A stretch of 25,843 bases of DNA from a virus. The DNA lies in IMG/VR virus record IMGVR_UViG_3300010389_000044, positions 1 to 25,843 of that record; one strand, written 5' to 3'. This document shows, piece by piece, positions 898 through 22,015 of the stretch; the stretch's first letter is position 1, and each line of letters begins with the position of its first letter. A program made the translations under genes and the position numbers. Under the pieces are notes generated by a model. It was not told the origin of the DNA and did no database searches. It worked only from the letters and a program-made list of their open reading frames with translations.

Positions 898-3144
898 CTA
901 TTTAAGATCTACCGTGTCTTCTCTAACCCATCCAAATTCTCTTCCCTTCTTTTTCTCAGGAAACTGTATCTTGTACCATCTATAATCTTTTACTTTGCCT
1001 CTACCTTTGACCATCTTTGATGATATTACCAAACCGATGTTACCCGAAGTATGTTTATAAAGAAGATTGTTAATGGAACCTGTGTTTACTTCTGGTGAGG
1101 TTCTTACGTTTACGTATCCTGATCCAGTTGATGCCGGATATGCTTTTTTTCCTTGTACTTCATCAGAACCTCCGGATAGATCTTGTGTAATGTTACCAGA
1201 TACAACATCTATTAAGGGAAAGCTTTTTACCGTTTTACCAACTGTAAATTTTACCAAAGCTATCTTAGACGGCATCTTTTCGTCCCATTTACTTCCTTTT
1301 ATCCAATCAGAAAACTCTGAACCAGTTTTCAATGTGCCATTGAAGGTTTTCCCTGAACTTGTTTTATATGTAACTTTTCTATTGCTTTTAATGGTTCCTT
1401 CTATTCCTCCCCTAGAACTATAGTCTATATAAGGATTTCCCTCATCATCTATCTCAATATCTATAAAAGTCTTTGTGACTCCAAAGGAGGTTTTTGCTTG
1501 CTCTTTTAATCGACTAGCCATTTCTTTGATTTCCTTATTGGATAAAGGTTTTTGGTATCCGCTTGCTAGATAGAAGTTACTGATAGATGCTGTATCTTTT
1601 TCTATCTTAGTGCCTTTTTTAGACCCTTTAGTTACTTCTATCTTTTTACCATCTTCCGAGAAATTACCAGAACTTAAGAATTTCGAACCACCGGTAGATC
1701 CTTTTTTCTGAACAGTGAATATTTTCCATGTGTTTCCAGAATAAAAATAGTAGGCTAAAGGTTTATGTTTACTTAAGACTCTAACAGTGTCTTTTTTTCT
1801 TTTTTCTCCTTTTTTCATTAACTTCACACCTGCACTATTGTACTTGTTACACATTTCTATTATAGGAGTTAGTGATTCGTCAAATCCTTCAGGTATTTCT
1901 GCTTTATCTTCATACTCTTTACCAAATTCATCCCATGCTTTTTTGATGTATGAGTTAGTGTGAGATCCCTCTTTATCTAAGCGGTTTTCTTTGGCCCATT
2001 CTGGATGTTTGTCGTTTACCCAAGCTCTAAATTTGTTTCCCTCCTCTTTACTATCAAAAGTGTCAAATGATGCAGGTGCTCCACCACCGCTTCCAGCAGC
2101 AGGTTTTTTGATTTCTCCTGCAGTTTTTTTGAATGCCTCTGGATCAAATCCCTCTTTGATTTTTTTCGGAGCTATAAAATCGTCATATGAAATAAGAGAC
2201 TCTGAAAGAGAAGCCGATTCTTTAACACTCATTAGCTGATCTACAAACTCTTGTGTGATGTCTGATGATGTGTCAGCTAAACCGAATGCACTTTTGAGAG
2301 CAACCACCATGTTTGATGTTTTTCTCCCGTTTTTACCATCTGCAAAATTACCAGAAGAAAAATCTTTCCAAATCTGAGTTCCTGTAACGTCGCTATTTCC
2401 TTTGAATTTATCAAAGATCATTTGCTGGATCTTCTTAACTCTATCATTAGCAGGTTTACCTTTTGTCCATTCGGAAATAGGTTTTTCTATTTTTAGCTGT
2501 GATCCTGTTCCAACTCCTCCTGTTTGAGCTTTATTAGAAAGATTAGTAAGAAGCTCAGTCATCATAACTTCTGCTTCTCCAAATTTTGCAATAGCACTAT
2601 TAAGAGGATCTAGAATTCCTTTAAACTCTAATCCTTTTTGTGCTTCTATTCTTTCTTCTTGTACCTCTTTAGTGTAAGCCTCTTTCTTTTCCTTGAATTG
2701 AGCTTCTATCTTATTATAGATGTCTCTGTAACCAGATATCAGGGTTTCGTCCCCGCTTTCTAATTTTCTACCCTCTTTAGATCTAGTGTACTCCACATCT
2801 CCCATAAGCTTAGCTGTTCTCTCCAGTAATCCCATAAATTCTGATTTGTACTTTTCTGGAGTTTTTAGATCTGGGTTGATCTTCTTAACTGTATCAGCAT
2901 CGGTCAATTGTGAAATGATCTGATTTTTAAGAGCGGTAAGAGCCTTTAAAAAAGCATTGAGATTAAATTTACCAGTTCCTGAAGAATATTCTTCAGCTCC
3001 TCCCTGGTTAAATTTCTTTTCTTGTCTCTTTTCTTTTCTCTCCTCTTTTCTCTGCTTTCTAGTATCTTTGTCTTCTAAAAGATCCTCTTCAGAGATGGAT
3101 CTCATGCTTTCTGTTAGTTTTAGATATTTCTTAGAAAAATTCAT
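898..3144 (-). CDS. Large lysine-rich head-block protein with C-terminal bacterial SH3-like domain
   Basis: A 748-residue protein that I do not recognise as a whole. It begins MNFSKKYLKLTE (1-12), ending in an (I/L)xE prohead-protease consensus, followed by a very charged K/E/R stretch (about 25-50) and long predicted-helical regions. The middle contains a Gly/Ser/Ala-rich linker (about 350-360). The last 72 residues (677-748) look like a bacterial SH3 domain, with YVNVRTSP at the start and W(Y)KIQF and FGWV further on, as in domains that bind peptidoglycan or peptides. It sits downstream of the capsid genes in a series of K/E-rich proteins with similar N-termini, so a virion or internal-head role is inferred. 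Tail or baseplate location is the alternative. The SH3 call is moderately secure and the rest is hypothetical. Confidence 0.6.
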   Translation of the reverse strand: MNFSKKYLKLTESMRSISEEDLLEDKDTRKQRKEERKEKRQEKKFNQGGAEEYSSGTGKFNLNAFLKALTALKNQIISQLTDADTVKKINPDLKTPEKYKSEFMGLLERTAKLMGDVEYTRSKEGRKLESGDETLISGYRDIYNKIEAQFKEKKEAYTKEVQEERIEAQKGLEFKGILDPLNSAIAKFGEAEVMMTELLTNLSNKAQTGGVGTGSQLKIEKPISEWTKGKPANDRVKKIQQMIFDKFKGNSDVTGTQIWKDFSSGNFADGKNGRKTSNMVVALKSAFGLADTSSDITQEFVDQLMSVKESASLSESLISYDDFIAPKKIKEGFDPEAFKKTAGEIKKPAAGSGGGAPASFDTFDSKEEGNKFRAWVNDKHPEWAKENRLDKEGSHTNSYIKKAWDEFGKEYEDKAEIPEGFDESLTPIIEMCNKYNSAGVKLMKKGEKRKKDTVRVLSKHKPLAYYFYSGNTWKIFTVQKKGSTGGSKFLSSGNFSEDGKKIEVTKGSKKGTKIEKDTASISNFYLASGYQKPLSNKEIKEMASRLKEQAKTSFGVTKTFIDIEIDDEGNPYIDYSSRGGIEGTIKSNRKVTYKTSSGKTFNGTLKTGSEFSDWIKGSKWDEKMPSKIALVKFTVGKTVKSFPLIDVVSGNITQDLSGGSDEVQGKKAYPASTGSGYVNVRTSPEVNTGSINNLLYKHTSGNIGLVISSKMVKGRGKVKDYRWYKIQFPEKKKGREFGWVREDTVDLK

Positions 3145-3165
3145 TTTCTTCGTTTATTTATTTGA

Positions 3166-3708
3166 TTAAGCTAGAGCTTTTTTTGATGTGTTAAGACTTT
3201 GGGTAACCGAAGCCTCGAGTTCTTTCATCTTCTCGTTAACGAACTTTAAAAGTGAAGGATCCATTAAAAGATCTCCAGATTTTTCTTTTAGTGCTGCATA
3301 AGCCTTTAAAAGATCTGCAATACCCTCGTCAACTTTGTCATAAATCGGAGAAATCAGATCCTTGTATTTAGACCCTTCTCCTAGAGATTTGATTTCTTTC
3401 CAAGCTTCTTGCATGCCTTTGAAAAGATCATCAATAGAAGCATTCTCTGTCATTTTTCCCATTCTATTCATAAATGAACTAAGGATCTTAGTTTTAATTG
3501 AATCACTGAATGGGAAATTGATTGCCTGTTTAACAAGGTTCATCTGCATGTTATCTAGAAGCATCATTACATACTTTCTAACATCTTCTGCGTTCATATC
3601 TGATGATGATTGTTCATAAACAGTTTCAAATTCAAGTACCTCTTTAGGTCGAACTGATTCAAGAAGTGACTCGAATACTGGATTTTTTCCGTTATATGGG
3701 TTCTTCAT
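3166..3708 (-). CDS. Head-block protein with capsid-targeting-like N-terminus
   Basis: A 180-residue, mostly helical protein of unknown family. Its N-terminus MKNPYNGKNPVFESLLE (1-17) ends in LLE, a match to the T4 gp21 cleavage consensus (I/L)xE. It also resembles the start of the 825-residue protein at 9735-12212: Y-x-G-K-N, two or three variable residues, then E-S-L. That shared signal suggests both proteins go to the same place, plausibly the prohead core. The rest has amphipathic helices and no cysteine. A good GATATATAAATA promoter candidate lies 12 bases upstream of the ATG, and no Shine-Dalgarno sequence is visible. Confidence 0.6.
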   Translation of the reverse strand: MKNPYNGKNPVFESLLESVRPKEVLEFETVYEQSSSDMNAEDVRKYVMMLLDNMQMNLVKQAINFPFSDSIKTKILSSFMNRMGKMTENASIDDLFKGMQEAWKEIKSLGEGSKYKDLISPIYDKVDEGIADLLKAYAALKEKSGDLLMDPSLLKFVNEKMKELEASVTQSLNTSKKALA

Positions 3709-3720
3709 TTTCTCGATTTT

Positions 3721-3732
3721 TATTTATATATC
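3721..3732 (-). promoter_or_regulatory. Candidate late promoter, GATATATAAATA
   Basis: On the minus strand GATATATAAATA lies 12 bases before the ATG at 3708. Its TATAAATA core is identical to the T4 late promoter consensus, making this the closest match in the window to that established element. Confidence 0.55.
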
Positions 3733-3736
3733 TTCT

Positions 3737-4018
3737 TTATTGGAGAGATTCCAGTTTGGCTACCTCATTAGATTTATTTTGAAGCTCTGCTACTTTTTTC
3801 TGAAGTTCAAGAGCTTCCTGTTTTAGAGATTCACTCCTTTTGAGAGAGCCGTCTTTTTCTCTGTTTTTAACATTAGCTATAGCCAGATCTATTTCCGAGA
3901 TCTTTTTGTCTATCTCCATGATCTTAGCTTCGGCTGATGCAACGTCTTCTTTCTTTTTTCCCTTTTCTTCTGCTGATTGCTCTAAAATAAAGGAATCAAA
4001 ATTTTCTATAATTCTCAT
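3737..4018 (-). CDS. Small coiled-coil protein with capsid-targeting-like N-terminus
   Basis: A 93-residue protein beginning MRIIENFDSFILE (1-13) and then Q14. This pre-peptide of aromatic and aliphatic residues ending in ILE recalls the cleaved leader of T4 internal head proteins (MKTYQEFIAE). The rest, about 20-93, is a Lys/Glu/Leu-rich helix with heptad-like spacing (for example KKISEIDLAIANV), probably a coiled coil. Its ATG overlaps the stop of the upstream 284-residue gene by four bases (ATGA), so it is translationally coupled. The function is unknown. A small internal or core protein is an inference from the leader and the neighbours. Confidence 0.55.
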   Translation of the reverse strand: MRIIENFDSFILEQSAEEKGKKKEDVASAEAKIMEIDKKISEIDLAIANVKNREKDGSLKRSESLKQEALELQKKVAELQNKSNEVAKLESLQ

Positions 4019-4869
4019 TTTATTCTGTTCTTTATTTCTCTCTCAACCAAAGATATTTTAGATCTGATTTTGTCGATAGGTTTTCTGAGACTGAATCTAA
4101 GGGACATCTCTTCTTTTTCCAATGAAGAGATCATCCAAGATTCTCCAGAATTCCTGGCTCTTTTTAGATCCTTTCTTAATCTGGAAATAGCTTTATCGTA
4201 TTCAATTTCTAGATGGAACTTCCAGGTCTCTAATTGAGCCTTATAAGAGTCCAATTTTTCTTTAGTAAAACTTTTAGTGAGAGTTGATGCCTCTTGAGAA
4301 GGCATTTCAACAAAAGCTAGAACCTCTTTAGTTACACCATCAGGTAATTGGGTAAATTCAGGAGAAAGATATTCGGATCTTTCAATCTCTTGATAGGTCT
4401 GAGTTTTAGCATCTGTATCTTTAACAAGATCCTCGAACTCTTTAGCTAATTTATTCAATGAGTTTGGATCTTTATAGGGTTTTAGAAAATTCAACATTTT
4501 TTCAGTGCTGTCAGCCTGAATCTTTGAAAGTTCGGAATAATAAAAGGCTGATAGTTTCGGATCATCCTCTATAGTTTTTTCTGCTGTCTTAGTTAAAGCA
4601 TTTATTTCTTGAGATTTGATAGAGCTATAAACCCTTCTCTGTCTTTCCAGGTTCGAAAGTGCAAATCTGTATTCGGGAGATCCGTCCTTTTCCATATCTG
4701 CTATTTCCTTTTCTATTTTAACTGTATGGTCAACATCTTCTTCTCTGGCTTTTTGAATCTTTTTAAGAATTCCTTCCACCTTTGATTTCTTTCCTTTAAT
4801 GGCTTGACCAATAGAAGAAAAAATACCTTCGTTCAGAGGAAAATCGTTTATCCTTTTGATTCTAGACAT
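4015..4869 (-). CDS. Helical K/E-rich head-block protein with capsid-targeting-like N-terminus
   Basis: A 284-residue protein without a recognisable domain. It starts MSRIKRINDFPLNE (1-14), a basic and aromatic leader ending in LNE that fits the prohead-protease consensus, followed by GIFSSIGQAIKGKKS. The remainder is highly charged and probably almost wholly helical. The gene overlaps the stop of the 317-residue gene by one base (TAATG) and its own stop overlaps the next start by four bases, placing it in a three-gene coupled unit, 5822 down to 3737. No catalytic motif is visible. Confidence 0.55.
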   Translation of the reverse strand: MSRIKRINDFPLNEGIFSSIGQAIKGKKSKVEGILKKIQKAREEDVDHTVKIEKEIADMEKDGSPEYRFALSNLERQRRVYSSIKSQEINALTKTAEKTIEDDPKLSAFYYSELSKIQADSTEKMLNFLKPYKDPNSLNKLAKEFEDLVKDTDAKTQTYQEIERSEYLSPEFTQLPDGVTKEVLAFVEMPSQEASTLTKSFTKEKLDSYKAQLETWKFHLEIEYDKAISRLRKDLKRARNSGESWMISSLEKEEMSLRFSLRKPIDKIRSKISLVEREIKNRIK

Positions 4870-5822
4870 TATTTAGAACGTTTTTTTATTTCTCTGTTGA
4901 TGTAATCATAGACGCTGTGAATATTTTTCTTTTGTTCTTCGCTATACATCTTGTACTCCGGTCCCATGAAAATTCCCCTGATCTCATTTTTGAGAGATTT
5001 TAATTTATAAAGACCCTCGACATTATTAGCCATTTTAGTTGCTCTTTCTGCTTTCTTAACTAGATATTTTTCTGGATCTTGGGTAAATCCTGAAAAATCG
5101 TGATCTGGAGCTTTTTCCTCTGGTGTGTCATCCAGCTTCTTTTCTGCTTTTAGAGCATCTTCTCTTGCGTCCTGAACGTCTTTTCTGAGATCCTCTTTGG
5201 AAACCCCAAAGAAATCTTCCAGATCTTTTTCTCTTTCTTTGCTCTTTTGAGTGATAGCTTTAATCTTATCGTATCTCTCATTCTTGGTTAAAAGAACATC
5301 GTTTGCTCTTTGAGCATTGAAGTATTTTTTCTTTCTGTTGCTTTTACCTGTTAGATCTTTTACTTTCTGTTCAAGAGCTCCAAATATCTCATCATGAGTT
5401 TTTGTTAGCTCCTTCATTCTAGTATTTAAAGCATTTTTCTTTGCTTTGATATCCTCCATCATGGAAGTGTAATCTGGATTGGATTTGTCTTTTCTTAGCT
5501 GTCTTTCTTTTTCTAAAAGATCATAGAATTCATCGTAGATTTGAAATTCTTCCTCGTTGAATTTAAGCTCTTGGTTTTTCATCTGATCTAGAACTGTTTT
5601 AAGTTCCTTGATGTCTCCACCAAAAGAAGAGCTTAGAAAGTTAAGAATTCTATCTCCAATACTTTCATTTAATTGAATAATAGCGAAACGGATATCAACA
5701 TCATTCATATTCTGGAATTCTTCCATTTCTCGGAGGAGAGATGTTGTTCTTTCGATGTCTCCGTCGGTTTCAATAAAGACTCTTTTAGCCTTCTCAAATT
5801 GGTTTAGATTTTCAAATAACAT
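4869..5822 (-). CDS. Helical K/E-rich protein, first gene of the unit after the capsid terminator
   Basis: A 317-residue protein of unknown family, rich in Lys, Glu and Asp. Long helical stretches are likely (about 90-210), including a Glu/Lys run near 220-245. Its beginning is MLFENLNQFEKAKRV. LFE at 2-4 formally matches the protease consensus but is too near the start to resemble a leader convincingly. It opens the unit that follows the strong terminator after the capsid gene and has a GGGGATATATAG promoter candidate 18 bases before the ATG. A virion role is inferred only from position. Confidence 0.5.
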   Translation of the reverse strand: MLFENLNQFEKAKRVFIETDGDIERTTSLLREMEEFQNMNDVDIRFAIIQLNESIGDRILNFLSSSFGGDIKELKTVLDQMKNQELKFNEEEFQIYDEFYDLLEKERQLRKDKSNPDYTSMMEDIKAKKNALNTRMKELTKTHDEIFGALEQKVKDLTGKSNRKKKYFNAQRANDVLLTKNERYDKIKAITQKSKEREKDLEDFFGVSKEDLRKDVQDAREDALKAEKKLDDTPEEKAPDHDFSGFTQDPEKYLVKKAERATKMANNVEGLYKLKSLKNEIRGIFMGPEYKMYSEEQKKNIHSVYDYINREIKKRSK

Positions 5823-5840
5823 GATCCAATAGATTTTATT

Positions 5841-5852
5841 CTATATATCCCC
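5841..5852 (-). promoter_or_regulatory. Candidate late promoter, GGGGATATATAG
   Basis: Minus-strand GGGGATATATAG sits 18 bases before the ATG at 5822 and immediately after the capsid-gene terminator. This is where a new transcription unit would need to start. Confidence 0.5.
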
Positions 5853-5914: not shown

Positions 5915-7639
5915 TTAGACAATAGCTGTAGCAGTACCAACGTTAACGTGGAAAGTCACGTACATTGTCTCTGGGTGGTGACCAGCTTCAACCAATGCGT
6001 AACGTGATTTAACAGCTACTTTTGGTGACATAGTACCTTCAGAGATAGTCTGGATAGACTCTGCCATCATGTAAGGCATGAACTTGATACCTGGCTCGTC
6101 ATCAGCACCTTTACGTCCAACAAGAATTCTGTTATCGCTGAATGCCATGTTCTGGTCAACGTATACGGTCATACCCGCAAGTGAACCTACTGGGTAAAGA
6201 GTTCCGTTGTTTTGTGTAAGAGTGTTAGTGAACGGAGCGAAAGTAAATTGGCTAATGTCCTGAAGTGCAGAAGCGATTTGAGAGTTAGTAACAATGAAGT
6301 TAGCAGGACCTCTTCTACCTCTGTTAGCTACAACGTTAGCAGCTGCAAGTACACGGCTGTAAAGTCTACGCTGAACTGTAGATTGGTTCTCAAATCCACC
6401 TGATGCAGGACCAGCTACTGCGCCTGGACGGCTAGCTCCAAGACCTGAACCTTCTTTACCGATGTAGTTAGGAACTGTGTAAGTAGCAGTACCACCAATT
6501 ACAAGGTTAAGGTTAAGGTTAGTGCTTTCAGTTAGCAAGAACTGAGAGTGGTTAGACCATCCAAGTGCAAATGCTCTTGAAAGGATGTGCTTGTTGATCG
6601 CCTGAGAAACCTCGTTAACAAGAGCGTTTTCGATCATTGACACTACGTCAATACCGAATTGCTTGTTAAGGTCTTGGATTTGCTCAGTTGTCACAGAAGC
6701 AGCAACTTGGAAAGTACCAGCCTCAACGAATTTAGTAAACGTTGAAAGTCCTAGTGACTTGTAGTAGTTGCTTTCACCAGTACCTCTTGTCATCGGATCG
6801 TAGTTAACTGTACCGTCAACGTAAGGTCCTTGGAAATCGTTAGTGTTGTCTGGTCCAGCTCCAGAGAATCCTTGGATGTGATCTTCTAGAGTTTTAACCA
6901 ATACAGCGTTACCGTCTGCAAAAGCTACAACAGTACCTGAAGCAGATCCAGTAGTGATCTGTGAGTTAACAGTTACCACATCAGCAACTGAATCACCAGA
7001 AGTTAAAGCTGTGATTCTGAAAATTGGGAATCCATCAATTCTTGAATAACCAACAAATGCAGAAGTTGCGAAAGCAGCTGGAGTACCAGTAACTGAAAGG
7101 TAATAAGTAGCACCTACTGTTAAAGTTCCGAATACTGGAGAAGCCTCAGAAATAGGAACTTTAATTACGTCTGGTGCGTTAGCTGTGAAAGGAGCAGCTG
7201 AAGTATCAGAACCGCTAAGCTTACCACCAGCATATACGTAGTCAAGGTAAGAAAGAACCCCTGTAGGACCACTCATTGGGATAACAGGAACTACGTCAAA
7301 ACCTACGGTTTTAGCAGCTACCTGAATAGCCAATGGAAGAAGTGAAGGGAACTTATCACCAGAACCAACGTATGGAGTACCAGCGTTGTAAGTACCATTG
7401 TAATAGAAACCAGCAGGCCCGTTACCAGCGGCACCACCTGTGTAGTTTCCTGGAGGGGTAATGTTACCCATACCATTTAGAACACCAAGAGAGTTGTATG
7501 CTCCAGCAGATTCGTTTAGTGAGTGGAAGTGGCAATACTTAGTAAGCCATTCTACCTTTGAACGATCCGTGATGCCAGTCTTGCTCTCGATGATCGGAGA
7601 CCATGTCTCGTAAATCTCGTTTTCGTTTAAGAGTTGCAT
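5915..7639 (-). CDS. 23: Major capsid protein, T4 gp23-like
   Basis: A 574-residue protein that forms the hexameric lattice of the head in T4-type phages. The start (MQLLNENEIYETWSPIIES) and the C-terminal half fit gp23 proteins. Recognisable stretches include QAINKHILSRAFALGWSNHS, GRRGPANFIVTNSQIASAL, VYVDQNMAFSDNRILVGRKG, and the ending KSRYALVEAGHHPETMYVTF. It is somewhat longer than T4 gp23, with an apparent Gly/Ala/Thr-rich insertion at about 145-265. Near the N-terminus LNE at 41-43, followed by SAGAYN, is the best candidate for the maturation cut equivalent to the one T4 protease gp21 makes in gp23. Base use differs from its neighbours, with more GC-ending codons, as expected for the most abundant product. 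It starts 12 bases after the protease-scaffold stop, without a Shine-Dalgarno sequence (TAATAAAAATG), and ends in a strong terminator. Confidence 0.93.
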   Translation of the reverse strand: MQLLNENEIYETWSPIIESKTGITDRSKVEWLTKYCHFHSLNESAGAYNSLGVLNGMGNITPPGNYTGGAAGNGPAGFYYNGTYNAGTPYVGSGDKFPSLLPLAIQVAAKTVGFDVVPVIPMSGPTGVLSYLDYVYAGGKLSGSDTSAAPFTANAPDVIKVPISEASPVFGTLTVGATYYLSVTGTPAAFATSAFVGYSRIDGFPIFRITALTSGDSVADVVTVNSQITTGSASGTVVAFADGNAVLVKTLEDHIQGFSGAGPDNTNDFQGPYVDGTVNYDPMTRGTGESNYYKSLGLSTFTKFVEAGTFQVAASVTTEQIQDLNKQFGIDVVSMIENALVNEVSQAINKHILSRAFALGWSNHSQFLLTESTNLNLNLVIGGTATYTVPNYIGKEGSGLGASRPGAVAGPASGGFENQSTVQRRLYSRVLAAANVVANRGRRGPANFIVTNSQIASALQDISQFTFAPFTNTLTQNNGTLYPVGSLAGMTVYVDQNMAFSDNRILVGRKGADDEPGIKFMPYMMAESIQTISEGTMSPKVAVKSRYALVEAGHHPETMYVTFHVNVGTATAIV

Positions 7640-7651
7640 TTTTATTAATCG

Positions 7652-9700
7652 TTATTTTTTGAATCTTTTACCTAAAGCTTCAGAGATATTTTGAAGATAA
7701 GCATTGCTAACTCCAGATCTCATATTAGTATCAGGTTGAGTAGATTCTTGGGACTCGTTGATTTGTTCTAGATTAGGTTTAACTGGAGCCTTAAGACCTC
7801 TTGTTCTCCAGAAGTTATTGATCTGGTAAGGAGTCGATAAATTATAGAACTTACTCTGTGCAACGATTGCATTTTTCTGTCCTTCGTTTAGTGATTCCCA
7901 AGCCGGAACTAAATCTTCTGGGATCATATCAAGGAATTTTTCTCCTGATTCAACCTGCTCAGTCAAAGCAGATCCCATAATGTGAGCGACATCCGTACCC
8001 GAATTGAAGCTCTGCTCGTTTAGAGCTTTGGCGACCTTTTGTTTTTCGGCCTCGTTCAAAGAAAGGAATCCTTCTCTTGTTCTCTCATCTACGAGATTCA
8101 AGAAAGGATAATTTTTTTCGTTTATGATCTTATCAGTTTCTTTCTTGTTTACTGATTCGATTAGACTATCAACTTTTGATGTTAAAGAAGTGTAGTTTCC
8201 TGAGAAACCTGAAGTTCTTTTACCTTCGTTGATAGATTCGTTAATTTCTTTAGTCATGTTACCTGGCTTAGTACCTTTGTTTACAGACTCTGCCAAGTAC
8301 TCTGAATATTCCATGTTAGACTTAACCTTTTCTGCTAGATATTCAGAGTAGTTAATGTTACCATTTAATTTCTCTGCTAGATAGTCAGCGTAAGAAATAC
8401 CTTTATCTAGATTTTCTGCTAGATAATCTGAGTAAGCTATATTCTTGTCTAAGTTTTCTGCTAGGTATTCTGAGTAAGAGATATTCTTATCTAAGTTTTC
8501 TGCTAGGTATTCTGAGTAAGAAATATTGCTGTCTAGATTCTCAGCCAAATATTCAGAATAGGAAATGTTCTTATCTAAGTTTTCTGCTAGATACTCAGAG
8601 TAAGAGATATTCTTGTCTAAGTTTTCTGCTAGATATTTGCTGTAAGCGATGTTCTTTTCTACGTTCTCTGCGATGTATTCAGAATAAGAGATATTTCCAT
8701 CTACGTGCTCAGCCAAGTATTTAGCGTATGAAATAGCTTTATCTAGATTTTCTGCTAAGTATTTGTTATAAGAAATAGAACCTTCAAGATTCTCTGCTAG
8801 ATAATCTCCATACTTGATCGAATTCTCTAGATTTTCAGCTAGATATTCTGAATATTTTTCGAGTCTTTGGACTCTTTCTTCTAGAGATGAATCAATTCCT
8901 TCAGATCCTGAAGAACCGCTCTCTGAAACAGTTTTGATTTCGTTTCTCAACGACTCTAACTCTTTATTTAGAATTAAGGAATACTCGTTGAGTTCCTCTG
9001 CTGTGACAAAGTTGTCCATGTTCCTATCTTTATTTGTGTTCTCTTTCAAAATTTTAGAGATTTTGTCTGTGTCTTTAATTCTATATATCTGAACGTTAGA
9101 ATTTTTCTCCAGCCCAAAACTCTCATTTATGTTATTTAGTGAGTTGATAATAGAATCTTTTCTGAAATTCTCGAATGAATCATGAGATACACTCTCATAA
9201 ACTCTTTCAAGTTGAGCATTTTCAAATCCAGGATCAGCAACAAGATCGTAAGTGAAAATCTTCTTAATTTCTACTTTTTTATCGTTCTTGACGTTACCTG
9301 CTGCTCTTGAAGAAATGGAAATTGGAATACCAGCATCAACTAATTCCTTAGCTACTTTACCAGCTGGGGTGTTAAGAAGTTTAATCTTGATTTTAAGAGT
9401 CCTATTGTCATTATCATATGAAAGATCAGTGATGATGTGAGAGATGTTCTTTAGTGAAACATCAAACTCTTTTGGGTGATCCAATTCTCCAACCAATCGA
9501 TTTTGCTCGATCTTCTTTTTTAGATAATCTAAATGAGGAAGATATTCCTTCTCCTCATAGATTCTCTTGTTGGAGTTCTCCACTCCAAAAACTGCTGCCA
9601 CACCCTCAAGAAAATACTCTCCATTTTCCTTCTTAGTTTGAAGGTTTTTTGAGGCTTTCTCGAGAATGAGAACGTAATCTAGATTTTTTTCCTTTTCCAT
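7652..9700 (-). CDS. 21: Prohead protease (gp21-like) fused to repetitive scaffold (gp22-like)
   Basis: A 682-residue protein. Residues 1-165 look like the T4 gp21 prohead protease: EGVAAVFGVENSNKRIY (32-48), GELDHP with the probable catalytic His75, PISISSRAAG with the probable nucleophile at Ser130 or Ser131, and YDLVADPGF (151-159). After a linker, residues 282-477 are fourteen tandem 14-residue units of the type SYSEYLAENLDKNI, probably an extended or coiled helix. The remaining 200 residues are helical and end in GKRFKK. In T4 the protease and core scaffold are separate adjacent genes; here they are in one frame directly upstream of the capsid gene. Met228 (codon 9017-9019) could be an internal start giving a 455-residue free scaffold. 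A promoter candidate is placed 2 bases before the first ATG. Confidence 0.85.
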   Translation of the reverse strand: MEKEKNLDYVLILEKASKNLQTKKENGEYFLEGVAAVFGVENSNKRIYEEKEYLPHLDYLKKKIEQNRLVGELDHPKEFDVSLKNISHIITDLSYDNDNRTLKIKIKLLNTPAGKVAKELVDAGIPISISSRAAGNVKNDKKVEIKKIFTYDLVADPGFENAQLERVYESVSHDSFENFRKDSIINSLNNINESFGLEKNSNVQIYRIKDTDKISKILKENTNKDRNMDNFVTAEELNEYSLILNKELESLRNEIKTVSESGSSGSEGIDSSLEERVQRLEKYSEYLAENLENSIKYGDYLAENLEGSISYNKYLAENLDKAISYAKYLAEHVDGNISYSEYIAENVEKNIAYSKYLAENLDKNISYSEYLAENLDKNISYSEYLAENLDSNISYSEYLAENLDKNISYSEYLAENLDKNIAYSDYLAENLDKGISYADYLAEKLNGNINYSEYLAEKVKSNMEYSEYLAESVNKGTKPGNMTKEINESINEGKRTSGFSGNYTSLTSKVDSLIESVNKKETDKIINEKNYPFLNLVDERTREGFLSLNEAEKQKVAKALNEQSFNSGTDVAHIMGSALTEQVESGEKFLDMIPEDLVPAWESLNEGQKNAIVAQSKFYNLSTPYQINNFWRTRGLKAPVKPNLEQINESQESTQPDTNMRSGVSNAYLQNISEALGKRFKK
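8270..8857 (-). repeat. Fourteen tandem 42-base units coding the scaffold repeat
   Basis: Fourteen contiguous 42-base units encode the 14-residue motif xYxxYLAENLDKNI. Third codon positions vary considerably between units while the protein pattern is kept. The array is therefore an old, selected protein repeat and not a recent slippage product. Every unit contains LAE or IAE. Confidence 0.95.
9017..9030 (-). promoter_or_regulatory. Possible internal translation start for a separate scaffold product
   Basis: In the minus strand GATAGGAACATG places an AGGA-like Shine-Dalgarno sequence just before the in-frame Met228 codon (9017-9019) of the protease-scaffold gene. It falls at the junction between the protease domain and the scaffold. 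The spacing is short (3-4 bases) and few genes here use a Shine-Dalgarno sequence, so this is tentative. Confidence 0.35.
9081..9090 (-). promoter_or_regulatory. Possible internal late promoter before the scaffold part, AGATATATAG
   Basis: AGATATATAG on the minus strand lies inside the protease-scaffold gene, about 62 bases before the possible internal start at 9019. It is nearly identical to the intergenic GGGATATATAG at 5841-5852. It could drive scaffold (and capsid) expression separately from the protease. Confidence 0.3.
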
Positions 9701-9702
9701 TT

Positions 9703-9714
9703 CTTTTATATATC
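9703..9714 (-). promoter_or_regulatory. Candidate late promoter, GATATATAAAAG
   Basis: Minus-strand GATATATAAAAG ends two bases before the ATG at 9700. If it works as a -10 element, the message would start at or next to the start codon and so be nearly leaderless. Confidence 0.45.
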
Positions 9715-9734: not shown

Positions 9735-12212
9735 TTATTCTTCTTCAGCCATATCAGAAACCGCTATAGTAAGCTCATCCATACCCTCTGCTAGAGAATC
9801 AAGATCTTCTTCTGTAATATTCTTACAGTTTTCTCTCATTTTTGATGAATTAGCAGAAAGGGCATTAACTCCTCTCTTGATAGAATCCAAGGCATCCTCA
9901 AATTCTTTAGGAACTCCGGAAAGAGGATTTTTAGTTTTGAATCTAGGGAAAGATGGAATCTCGTCCATATCTGTATAGAGGTCTTTGAAGAATCCACCAA
10001 TTCCACCACCAATTATCTCATTGATTGAAGCTTGGATGCTTTCTCCTGCAAGAGAAAGAAATCTTTGTTCTACTAGAGGCCAAACTGGAATTGCCTTACC
10101 TGCTCCATCATTAGTGTAAGTTCCCCTTGAAAGAATAAGTGTTGACATGATAGCTAAAAGATCTTGAGATGAAACTGTTCCACCTAAGCTATTATAAAGT
10201 CCCCTAGCCATTGCATAAGCAGCATCTGGCTCGATGTATCCATTAAAGACTATTACTGTAACTGGATTTCTATCGTCACCAGCCCATTTAGCTATAGCTC
10301 CACCTCCAATTGCTCCTGCTGCAATAGTTCCAGCTGTTCCTAAAGCCCCAACTGCTGCTGCAGTACCTGTCGCTAAAGCTCCAGCTGCTGCAGTTCCACC
10401 AATTAGAGGAACTGAAGCTAAACCACCGGTAGCAACAATTGCACCGGCAACTAATCCGGAAATTAAAACTCCTTTTCCAACCCCACTGAACCATTCTGAC
10501 CAACTCTCATCGTAGTAGATAGAATAAGCTCCATCGTTAACCGGTTTAAGACCTTTCCATTCGATTGTCTCTTCTTCCTCTTTATCTTCCTCTTTATCTT
10601 CCTTATCTTCGTCTTTATCTGTATCTGCTCCCGCACAAGGAAGAACTTTTCCAGCTGCTAGAGAATCTTTGATACACTTATCTTTGAGTTTCTTTTTCTC
10701 TTCTTCTGTTTCTTTCTCTTCTTCCTTACTCTCTTCTTTTTCTGGAGCTTTTGCTTTTAATCTATCGAAAACTTGTTCGTCTAATTTTTCAAGTTCCAGA
10801 TTTTCCTCGATGACAGAAAAGAAATCATCAAATTCTAAGATAGAAGTTCCTTTAACTTCTTCCCTTTCTTGGACTTTTTCAGCGAAGGACATTTCCCAGT
10901 CTTTTGATTCTTCAAAAGCTGTTCCGACTGTTTCTGCTGTTTCAACATCAATATCATTAGATGTTAATCCCATGATACCGTCATACATTTCTTTGGTTAG
11001 ATCTGCAGTTAATTCCTGACCAGTCTCACCTGATAGGTATGCCCAAACAATATTACAAGCAGTTGAAGTTCCTTTACCATAAACTTTATCCGCTCCGCCT
11101 TTTTTAGAGAGGTATGTTTTGATTGAAGGAATAAGCTCCATCAATTTGGATTGGATCTTTCCGACCTCATTACATTTTGTGTTAAGCTTAACTGGGAATG
11201 TACACTCCTTAGTCGTAACTGGAGTGGTTTCTACTTTCTCCTTCTCTACGCTCACACAGATTCCTTTTCCTGAATCATATACTTTTCCTGGAGGACAAAC
11301 TGGAGGAATTACCGGAGGTGGTGTAAATCCACCCTGTTTAAGAATTCCATCCTTGATTCTATTGTATTCTTTTTTCTGTCTGATGATCTCATTGATAAGA
11401 TTATCCTGATCTCTCATATAATCTTTTCTCTTCATCGCTCCTTTAGGAGTAATAACCTGTAAGCCTTTTCGATCTACCATTTGGAGATCCTGTGCTTTTT
11501 GGTAGAGTCCAGTAGCAATATCTTTGTATCTGTCTACGTCTGCATTGTCTTTAAGAGCAGGAACGTATTTGTCTCTATCTACCATACCAACAAAAGCTGT
11601 GGCAGCATCTAAAGACTCCTTAGATTTATTAAAAGCTTTAGATCTGAATTCTGCTTCAGTTGTATCAGTCTCTTCACCACTTCTTTTGGCTTCTTCAACA
11701 ACATCACCAGATTTCTTAACCTCGTCATAAAGAGAAGGTTTTGTTTTCTTCATTTGTTTTTCTCTCTCAGCTAGATCAGCTTCGAAGTTATTCAGCATCT
11801 TTTTAATAGTGTCTTCCTTAGCTGAATTGAATAATCTCTCGTCAGCCATAACTGTTTCAAGGGATCTAAAAAGATCCATTAAATAACCAACGTTCTTATC
11901 GAATGCACTTTTTTGAGCAGGATCAAGGTATCCGAGTGATTGTACTAATGAGATCACATATTGCCTAAATGCACCGAAGTTTGAAATTCCGAGCATTTTA
12001 TTCTTAACCTCTGAAAATCCTCTTGTTGTTTTTAACCCTTCATTCTTAGAATTAAGGATAATTGAAAAAAGATTATTTAAAATAGTAGAAAGGGACGTTA
12101 GTGCGTCCATTGCTTCTTTTTTCTTGTCCTCTTTTTCTTCGTTGATTGAGGAAGAAAGACTTTCATAAATGAAGTTCTTTCCCTGATACATGTCTTGAAT
12201 TTTCTTGTTCAT
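9735..12212 (-). CDS. Large head-block protein with hydrophobic Gly/Ala segment and possible peptidoglycan-binding domain
   Basis: An 825-residue protein that I do not recognise as a whole. It starts MNKKIQDMYQGKNFIYE (1-17), a leader ending in IYE and related to the start of the 3166-3708 product. A helical charged region follows to about 300, then a small Pro/Cys module (CPPGKVYDSGKGICV, about 304-319). Residues 336-395 resemble a peptidoglycan-binding-type fold (GKIQSKLMEL then VYGKGTSTACNIVWAYLSG). A long Glu/Lys linker occupies 484-552. About 578-645 is a very hydrophobic Gly/Ala/Val stretch able to cross a membrane more than once. The rest is helical and ends in acidic residues. A protein packaged in the head and ejected into the envelope would fit this, but that is inference. 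Its start overlaps the nucleotidyltransferase gene by 50 bases. Confidence 0.6.
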   Translation of the reverse strand: MNKKIQDMYQGKNFIYESLSSSINEEKEDKKKEAMDALTSLSTILNNLFSIILNSKNEGLKTTRGFSEVKNKMLGISNFGAFRQYVISLVQSLGYLDPAQKSAFDKNVGYLMDLFRSLETVMADERLFNSAKEDTIKKMLNNFEADLAEREKQMKKTKPSLYDEVKKSGDVVEEAKRSGEETDTTEAEFRSKAFNKSKESLDAATAFVGMVDRDKYVPALKDNADVDRYKDIATGLYQKAQDLQMVDRKGLQVITPKGAMKRKDYMRDQDNLINEIIRQKKEYNRIKDGILKQGGFTPPPVIPPVCPPGKVYDSGKGICVSVEKEKVETTPVTTKECTFPVKLNTKCNEVGKIQSKLMELIPSIKTYLSKKGGADKVYGKGTSTACNIVWAYLSGETGQELTADLTKEMYDGIMGLTSNDIDVETAETVGTAFEESKDWEMSFAEKVQEREEVKGTSILEFDDFFSVIEENLELEKLDEQVFDRLKAKAPEKEESKEEEKETEEEKKKLKDKCIKDSLAAGKVLPCAGADTDKDEDKEDKEEDKEEEETIEWKGLKPVNDGAYSIYYDESWSEWFSGVGKGVLISGLVAGAIVATGGLASVPLIGGTAAAGALATGTAAAVGALGTAGTIAAGAIGGGAIAKWAGDDRNPVTVIVFNGYIEPDAAYAMARGLYNSLGGTVSSQDLLAIMSTLILSRGTYTNDGAGKAIPVWPLVEQRFLSLAGESIQASINEIIGGGIGGFFKDLYTDMDEIPSFPRFKTKNPLSGVPKEFEDALDSIKRGVNALSANSSKMRENCKNITEEDLDSLAEGMDELTIAVSDMAEEE

Positions 12213-12960
12213 TGTATATGTTTGTATATGCCTTCGATATAAGGTCTATTATCTTTCCTATATATCCTTCGTTTCTGAGTTTTTTGAAGACGAGATTTTC
12301 AACAGAGAATTCACCCCCTTTAGATAATCCTTCTCTTCTGGTCTTCACTATTTTCTTTTTGAGTTTTTGAGCTCTGTTGTAGATCTCTTCTTCTGTGATT
12401 TGTGAAAAATCTGAGGTATTAACAAGATTTTCCATTTTGGTGATCTCATCTACAAAATGGTGAAATTTGAGATCTACATCTCTATGGTCTATCTCGGGTT
12501 CAGTGTATCTAGGTTCTTTGATCCATTCTCCATTTAGAAGAGAATAAAGTCCCGATGCAACATGGGGTTCATTTATGTCTTGAGCATAAAGTTCCACATC
12601 GTGATCTCTAAGAACCACATTGTGACGCATATTCCAGATAAATCTTTGACCATCTAGTGCTTTTTTGACCAGATCCTTGTTCTCGTCAATTTCACTAAAA
12701 TCGAATAAGACATGGACGTCTAGATCTGATTTTTCTCCCCAATTATAATTAGCTAGGGATCCTGTTAGTTGTATGTCTCGAATTGGGACCTCAACTTTAA
12801 GAGCTTTATAGAAATCTTCCGCTATCTTTAATAGCTTTTCTCTGATTGTGGGATCGAACTGGTTACCAGTCCAAAATTTTGGATTGAGCTCCTTTTTATA
12901 AAATTCGTCTCTGTTTTCACTTTCAGAGACCCAAGAATTATAATCTAAAATGTTCTTCAA
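12163..12960 (-). CDS. Nucleotidyltransferase-fold protein (pol beta superfamily)
   Basis: A 265-residue protein whose residues 64-83 carry the nucleotidyltransferase signature: LTGSLANYNW (GS at 67-68), then SDLDVHV with metal-binding Asp79 and Asp81. A plausible third acid is Glu123 in HDVELYAQD. Such enzymes transfer a nucleotide to a protein, RNA or small molecule; the acceptor here is unknown. The start codon appears to be TTG (12958-12960), read in frame into KNILDYNSWVSESEN. No in-frame ATG gives the same N-terminus. The leader resembles those of neighbouring head-block proteins, though its site is VSE instead of (I/L)xE. It lies between the exonuclease and the 825-residue gene, overlapping the latter by 50 bases. 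Confidence 0.65.
   Translation of the reverse strand: MKNILDYNSWVSESENRDEFYKKELNPKFWTGNQFDPTIREKLLKIAEDFYKALKVEVPIRDIQLTGSLANYNWGEKSDLDVHVLFDFSEIDENKDLVKKALDGQRFIWNMRHNVVLRDHDVELYAQDINEPHVASGLYSLLNGEWIKEPRYTEPEIDHRDVDLKFHHFVDEITKMENLVNTSDFSQITEEEIYNRAQKLKKKIVKTRREGLSKGGEFSVENLVFKKLRNEGYIGKIIDLISKAYTNIYNEQENSRHVSGKELHL
12258..12267 (-). promoter_or_regulatory. Possible promoter for the 825-residue gene, GGATATATAG
   Basis: Minus-strand GGATATATAG lies within the end of the nucleotidyltransferase gene, about 45 bases before the ATG at 12212. It matches the motif seen between genes. Confidence 0.35.

Positions 12961-17084: not shown

Positions 17085-22015
<4,931 letters not shown>

Follow-up and report, generated by a model that had tools for sequence, protein, structure and literature searches.

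A protease-scaffold fusion gene beside a capsid gene

We analyzed 25,843 nucleotides (hereafter, the window) from an IMG/VR virus contig of 39 kb. As summarized in Table 1, the locus centers on a fusion open reading frame (ORF) in which a T4 gp21-type protease is joined to a scaffold, and a gp23-type major capsid protein (MCP) gene adjoins it. Two T4-type portal genes and a gene for a gp55-type late sigma factor lie farther along the same contig.

Table 1. Features of the locus in window coordinates. Arrows mark putative cleavage points.
Feature	Position	Strand	Basis or remark
Protease-scaffold fusion ORF, 682 aa	7652..9700	minus	Pfam Peptidase_S77/S80; PHROG head maturation protease
gp21-type protease domain, aa 22-171	9188..9637	minus	Profile, fold, triad columns
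Catalytic triad	H75 9476-9478; S130 9311-9313; D152 9245-9247	minus	H/S/D columns invariant with T4 H85/S140/D168
Candidate release site NINE↓S (E193) after protease domain	9122..9133	minus	E193 invariant in A1 and A2
Internal late-promoter-like motif GATATATAGA	9080..9089	minus	One of four GATATATARA in window
AAATAA element upstream of internal start	9030..9035	minus	Comparison with other internal ATGs
Internal start codon, Met228	9017..9019	minus	Met in all 62 representatives
Predicted nested scaffold-only ORF, 455 aa	7652..9019	minus	Opens at Met228
Fourteen 14-aa units, consensus SYSEY(L/I)AENLDKNI	8270..8857	minus	aa 282-477, in frame in 682-aa ORF
C-terminal scaffold region, 11 further [IL]xE sites	7655..8269	minus	Motif count
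Candidate C-terminal release site INE↓S (E649), 33 residues from end	7754..7762	minus	E649 invariant in A2
gp23-type MCP	5915..7639	minus	Pfam Gp23, 1.4e-39
MCP candidate propeptide site HSLNE↓S	LNE codons 7511-7519	minus	[LIM]xE here in most aligned MCPs
Late-promoter-like GATATATAAA upstream of fusion gene	9705..9714	minus	Motif scan
Late-promoter-like motif downstream of MCP, upstream of ORF 4869-5822	5840..5849	minus	Motif scan
Late-promoter-like motif upstream of ORF 3166-3708	3723..3732	minus	Motif scan

A preliminary description of this DNA placed a gp21-like protease in the same polypeptide as a repeat array, and that assignment is well supported. The domain matched PF03420 in Pfam (1.1e-9) and phrog_207 in PHROG (4.8e-38). 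Its best structural match was the T4 gp21 crystal structure 5jbl (profile E 2e-4, fold E 5e-7), with herpesvirus proteases as the next-best matches. By profile, by fold and by Ser-His-Asp residues that are invariant across the set, the domain belongs to the T4 gp21-type prohead proteases (S77). The rest of the ORF groups with T4 gp22-type scaffolds by its position between protease and MCP in gene order, its helical character (a low-confidence prediction) and its density of [IL]xE triplets. No Pfam or PHROG scaffold family matched this part in sequence, and Pfam matches to LTI65_PGEED, DUF7603 and PSCyt2 were judged to reflect repeats or low complexity.

Several further observations concern the neighborhood. 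The portal genes are adjacent and full-length (L040 1461-3023 and 3028-4647, G000:C1 ~26460-29646, minus strand; Portal_T4, 4e-57 and 2e-51). Two portal genes were also present in six of six W-clade relatives tested, and one in two L018-clade records; the portal is possibly duplicated or hetero-oligomeric. A second sigma-70-family factor with regions 2 and 4 (L040 12930-13553) is encoded besides the gp55-type one. A 782-aa protein (L040 6335-8683) repeats an F(I/V)E(D/S)xxNANLAxAP-like motif near its C-terminus and had no family match at cut-off. A 1633-aa protein encoded on the minus strand at 17085-21986 of the window has several GPTGPTG stretches of collagen-like type, and its gene repeats an 81-bp sequence three times almost identically; it is probably a fibre of the tail or head. 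Within the head cluster, the ORFs at 12163-12960 and 9735-12212 overlap, and the former is nucleotidyltransferase-like (NTP_transf_2). In the surroundings of the head genes (898-5822 and 9735-12960, minus strand), uncharacterized proteins start with short (I/L)xE peptides, such as FPLNE↓G, FILE↓Q and YLKLTE↓S. These proteins resemble T4 capsid targeting sequences at their N-termini and are candidate internal head proteins.

A regular array under selection at the protein level

The array was exactly as previously described: 14 contiguous 14-residue units, of which 13 contain LAE and one (aa 338-351) contains IAE. TRF recovered its 42-bp period. Residue shuffling predicted 4.7 [IL]xE triplets in the array, relative to the 14 observed. 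Since the units share ancestry, LAE or IAE in all 14 does not represent fourteen independent events. The weight of evidence is the retention of LAE through near-saturated synonymous change and across relatives. Over all 14 units pS was 0.78 and pN was 0.24, which bears out the earlier claim that the repeat is kept in protein and varied in codons. Codons 6-8, encoding LAE, had a pN of only 0.03 against a pS of 0.71, and the two Tyr codons had a pN of 0. The remaining nine positions had a pN of 0.36 against a pS of 0.72. The LAE codons of the array are under purifying selection.

Structure prediction of the repeat had been proposed as a check. AlphaFold2 (AF2) modelled the protease well and returned the array as a single helix of ~170 residues, but at low confidence. 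In two AF2 models the pLDDT of the array was mostly ~28-45, which is too weak for placing Glu8.

The unit is conserved among relatives

A first scan for relatives yielded 30 loci, and a second yielded at least 591 matches, 80 of which were kept. Conservation was quantified across 62 representatives at <90% identity, comprising 563 distinct units that are not phylogenetically independent. The nearest phage records were uncultured phages of 462-735 kb. Each representative carried 7-16 units per array. Across the 563 units, Tyr2 and Tyr5 were each conserved in 95%, Glu8 in 94% and Ala7 in 84%. Position 6, the putative P3, was L in 56%, I in 25% and V in 19% of units, so that L and I together accounted for 81%. 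Glu8 was by far the most conserved polar residue other than Tyr, with the remaining polar positions reaching at most 62%.

Whether LAE is the most conserved part of the unit thus has a divided answer: its Glu leads the polar residues other than Tyr, but both tyrosines match it. This implies that the constraint on the unit is partly structural. The preliminary description had also named homologues that lose LAE while keeping the helical periodicity as evidence against its reading. One such lineage exists, L005, in which Glu is kept in three of seven units and the YxxY[ILV]A periodicity is retained. A few units outside L005 also lack Glu with the periodicity intact. Dependence between Glu8 loss and Val at P3 was not significant (P 0.16).

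Candidate cleavage sites in the scaffold and neighboring proteins

The T4 protease gp21 cuts after L/I-x-E and reduces gp22 to small peptides (PMC9026906, PMC9958956). Outside the array, the scaffold contained 13 [IL]xE triplets where 4.5 were expected, an approximately 3-fold excess. VxE was near chance in the non-repeat scaffold (2 versus 1.6 expected), and the protease domain had no [IL]xE excess (2 versus 3.4 expected). T4 gp22 itself has 16 [IL]xE sites in 269 aa, and the same bias was found in the separate gp22 scaffolds of T4, PA5oct, Va1, Moby and S-SZBM1, in agreement with the published L/I-x-E rule (PMC9026906). Because dense [IL]xE is general in gp22-type scaffolds, the novelty here is the regular array and the fusion rather than shredding. 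[IL]xE was also 1.65-fold enriched in aa 2-20 of 265 representative neighboring proteins (P 5e-8), as expected of head proteins with cleavable targeting peptides. VxE was not enriched (0.74) at the same N-termini.

Candidate xE↓S/N sites are conserved at both flanks of the scaffold. A site of the form [ILVM][NS]E↓[SAN] follows the protease domain in 60 of 62 representatives. Near the C-terminus, [ILVM]xE↓[SN] occurs at a median of 32 residues from the end in nearly all of the 62, with L or I at P3 in 57. Of the eight [IL]xE sites in the MCP, four fall within its first 43 aa, and [LIM]xE↓S/N at the expected propeptide end is conserved in most relatives.

Val at P3 falls outside the T4 consensus and occurs in 19% of units and in 17 of the 60 sites after the protease domain. 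Hence, specificity is looser than that of T4 gp21 or some sites are uncut. As a disproof of cleavage Val at P3 is weakened, given that the sites after the protease domain also take Val and have an invariant Glu. A folded helix is not an obvious protease substrate. The earlier proposal that the array is a shredding ladder accordingly stands in part: the retention of Glu8 and the [IL]xE excess outside the array favor it, but Val at P3, the equal conservation of Tyr and the loss in L005 count against it. Judging from these sequence patterns, cutting at most LAE sites is likely.

A putative nested scaffold gene

The preliminary description missed what appears to be a second gene inside the first. 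The internal Met precedes a conserved FVT-x-EEL-x-x-YS segment, and its flanks are variable with indels across the 62 representatives. GATATATAGA lies 61-70 nt before Met228. Four copies of GATATATARA occur in the window relative to 0.26 expected, and none of 100 shuffles reached four. All four are on the coding strand, three before genes and one inside the fusion gene. In T4, late promoters consist of a TATA box of 8 bp located roughly one turn ahead of the start and followed by AT-rich DNA (PMC2988020). The contig that contains the window encodes a gp55-type late sigma.

The motif is specific to the clade of the window, where the regions ahead of ORFs held GATATATA at a 23-fold enrichment. 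Of 55 anchored genes, 36 have a single copy within the ORF, always at -34 to -79 from the Met. In L017, the ancestral Ile-Tyr codons lack the motif, which appears elsewhere, closer to the Met and in another codon context. The L018 clade has AATAAATA upstream of ORFs and, at the matching place, inside the gene. Such movement in L017 and the L018 clade is what a DNA signal, unlike a protein motif, would be expected to show. The sister clades seem to have diverged in late-promoter specificity, with one of these motif types replacing the other. In the largest-genome clade (L001-L004, L029-L031, L034), the Met was kept and no clear motif was found.

AAATAA precedes the internal Met in 17 of 23 homologues versus 32 of 1166 other internal ATGs, and this A-rich context resembles the real starts of these phages. 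No Shine-Dalgarno sequence was found at Met228, and only 3.8% of real starts in these phages have one. Synonymous conservation upstream of Met228 was raised (1.26, peak at 202-223) and not significant alone (P 0.34); we therefore did not accept it, taken alone, as proof that an internal element exists. For the motif, synonymous nulls computed gene by gene were modest (P 0.004-0.18 each). Separately, synonymous conservation had a ratio of 1.34 (P 0.017) at aa 546-569 of the C-terminal scaffold (window ~7994-8065), for which we have no explanation. For the clade of the window, motif placement and start context make it likely that the nested scaffold-only gene is real, and we infer both its transcription and its translation.

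Proposed mechanism and alternatives

We consider it fairly likely that the locus is a nested protease-scaffold gene of a giant T4-type phage with a shreddable 14-unit rod. The full-length fusion protein would carry the gp21-type protease into the prohead core. The internal late promoter GATATATAGA and Met228 would supply extra scaffold without protease, making possible a surplus of scaffold over protease as in T4 and herpesviruses. The scaffold is envisaged as a long helical rod of 14-residue units. At maturation, the protease would free itself at NINE193↓S, remove the C-terminal tail of the scaffold at INE649↓S and trim the propeptide of the MCP at LNE43↓S. It would also cut behind the Glu of every LAE and so release 14-residue products such as NLDKNISYSEYLAE. 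This would break the scaffold into ~28 short peptides that could exit the head before DNA packaging; fourteen of these would have exactly 14 residues.

A different possibility is that the rod is structural only, with the 14-mer serving as a helical packing repeat in which Leu/Ile and Ala pack, Glu8 forms a salt bridge or a Tyr contact, and the few cuts fall outside the array. The YxxY pair, as conserved as Glu8, fits such packing, as do a P3 that accepts L, I or V, a lineage (L005) that loses Glu and keeps the periodicity, and the one long helix of the low-confidence AF2 models. Nonetheless, Glu8 is constrained while other polar positions of the unit vary, and the excess of the triplet outside the array does not extend to the protease domain. 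The same enrichment is seen in unrelated gp22s that lack this repeat, and the different repeat of Tenacibaculum phage PTm1 contains LSE/LCE. We regard a structural role alone as unlikely. Unit number might otherwise act as a length ruler that sets rod length and hence head size, with proteolysis being incidental. The range of 7-16 units between relatives, counted on contigs that are genome fragments, suits this idea, but it leaves Glu8 and the enrichment outside the array unexplained, and we consider it very unlikely.

Doubt could also be directed at the internal start, in that Met228 may belong to an N-terminal domain of the scaffold and GATATATA may merely reflect conserved Ile-Tyr codons. 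The Ile-Tyr pair is indeed nearly conserved in protein, and the per-gene synonymous nulls are only moderately small. Against this, L017 has Ile-Tyr in other codons with its motif elsewhere, and in the L018 clade Ile-Tyr is encoded by ATT TAC, with the clade's own motif just downstream. Each gene has a single motif, always near the Met, and the protein sequence on both sides of the Met is variable and contains indels, in the manner of an N-terminus. The absence of a gene start is, in our estimation, distinctly unlikely.

Returning to the nested gene with a shreddable rod, we lean toward the broader view that a large and widespread group of giant T4-type phages has a herpesvirus-like nested gene with an internal late promoter, both release sites and 14-residue self-destruct units. 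How the scaffolding core of T4-type phages is built and taken apart is not yet settled (PMC9958956). If its units are cleavable and nearly identical, such a scaffold would be a simple mass-spectrometry target, as it should give one family of 14-residue peptides.

Comparison with known systems

The locus shares with T4 gp21/gp22 the protease fold and triad, the order before a gp23-type MCP, an [IL]xE-dense scaffold and gp55-type late transcription. However, gp21 and gp22 are separate genes in T4 and the gp22 sites are irregular, whereas in the window a single ORF holds 14 regularly spaced units and, apparently, a nested start. We found no nested protease-scaffold gene in T4-like phages in the open-access literature searched. 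Lambda C/Nu3 is a protease-scaffold ORF with a nested scaffold, although the C protease is ClpP-type and not gp21-type. Lak phage and PTm1 also have a gp21-type protease fused to a scaffold, and the Lak C-terminal region resembles the scaffold C-terminus of the window by eye. Their fusions lack such a 14-mer array: in Lak, an acidic stretch with few [IL]xE sites occupies the middle, and PTm1 carries its own repeat. Internal promoter motifs were tested in the PTm1 and Lak fusion genes and none were found. The S80 proteases phiKZ gp175 and SPN3US gp245 likewise cut after Glu, undergo C-terminal autoprocessing and act on long multi-site propeptides (PMC5694885, PMC10052503). They differ in their motif (AxE or SxE), and phiKZ-type giant phages had no confirmed counterpart of gp22 (PMC5694885).

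Herpesvirus UL26/UL26.5 has a similar arrangement, in which a protease of matching fold likewise lies N-terminal to a scaffold in one ORF and a scaffold-only gene starts inside that ORF, as is predicted for the window. HSV1 UL26 is cut after residue 247 and after residue 610 of 635, the latter 25 residues from the C-terminus (PMC12474303); the window has candidate sites in the same layout, after the protease and near the C-terminus. The product of UL26.5, whose start is internal to UL26, is scaffold alone, and the protease-derived form makes up only ~10% of scaffold (PMC12474303). The window differs in its scaffold sequence, Glu-type motif, many internal sites and phage promoter. We describe a likeness of arrangement and make no claim of common descent. 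Should the nested gene prove real, phages with a related gp21-type protease would share the herpesvirus route to excess scaffold, which would bear on the evolution of a shared assembly plan.
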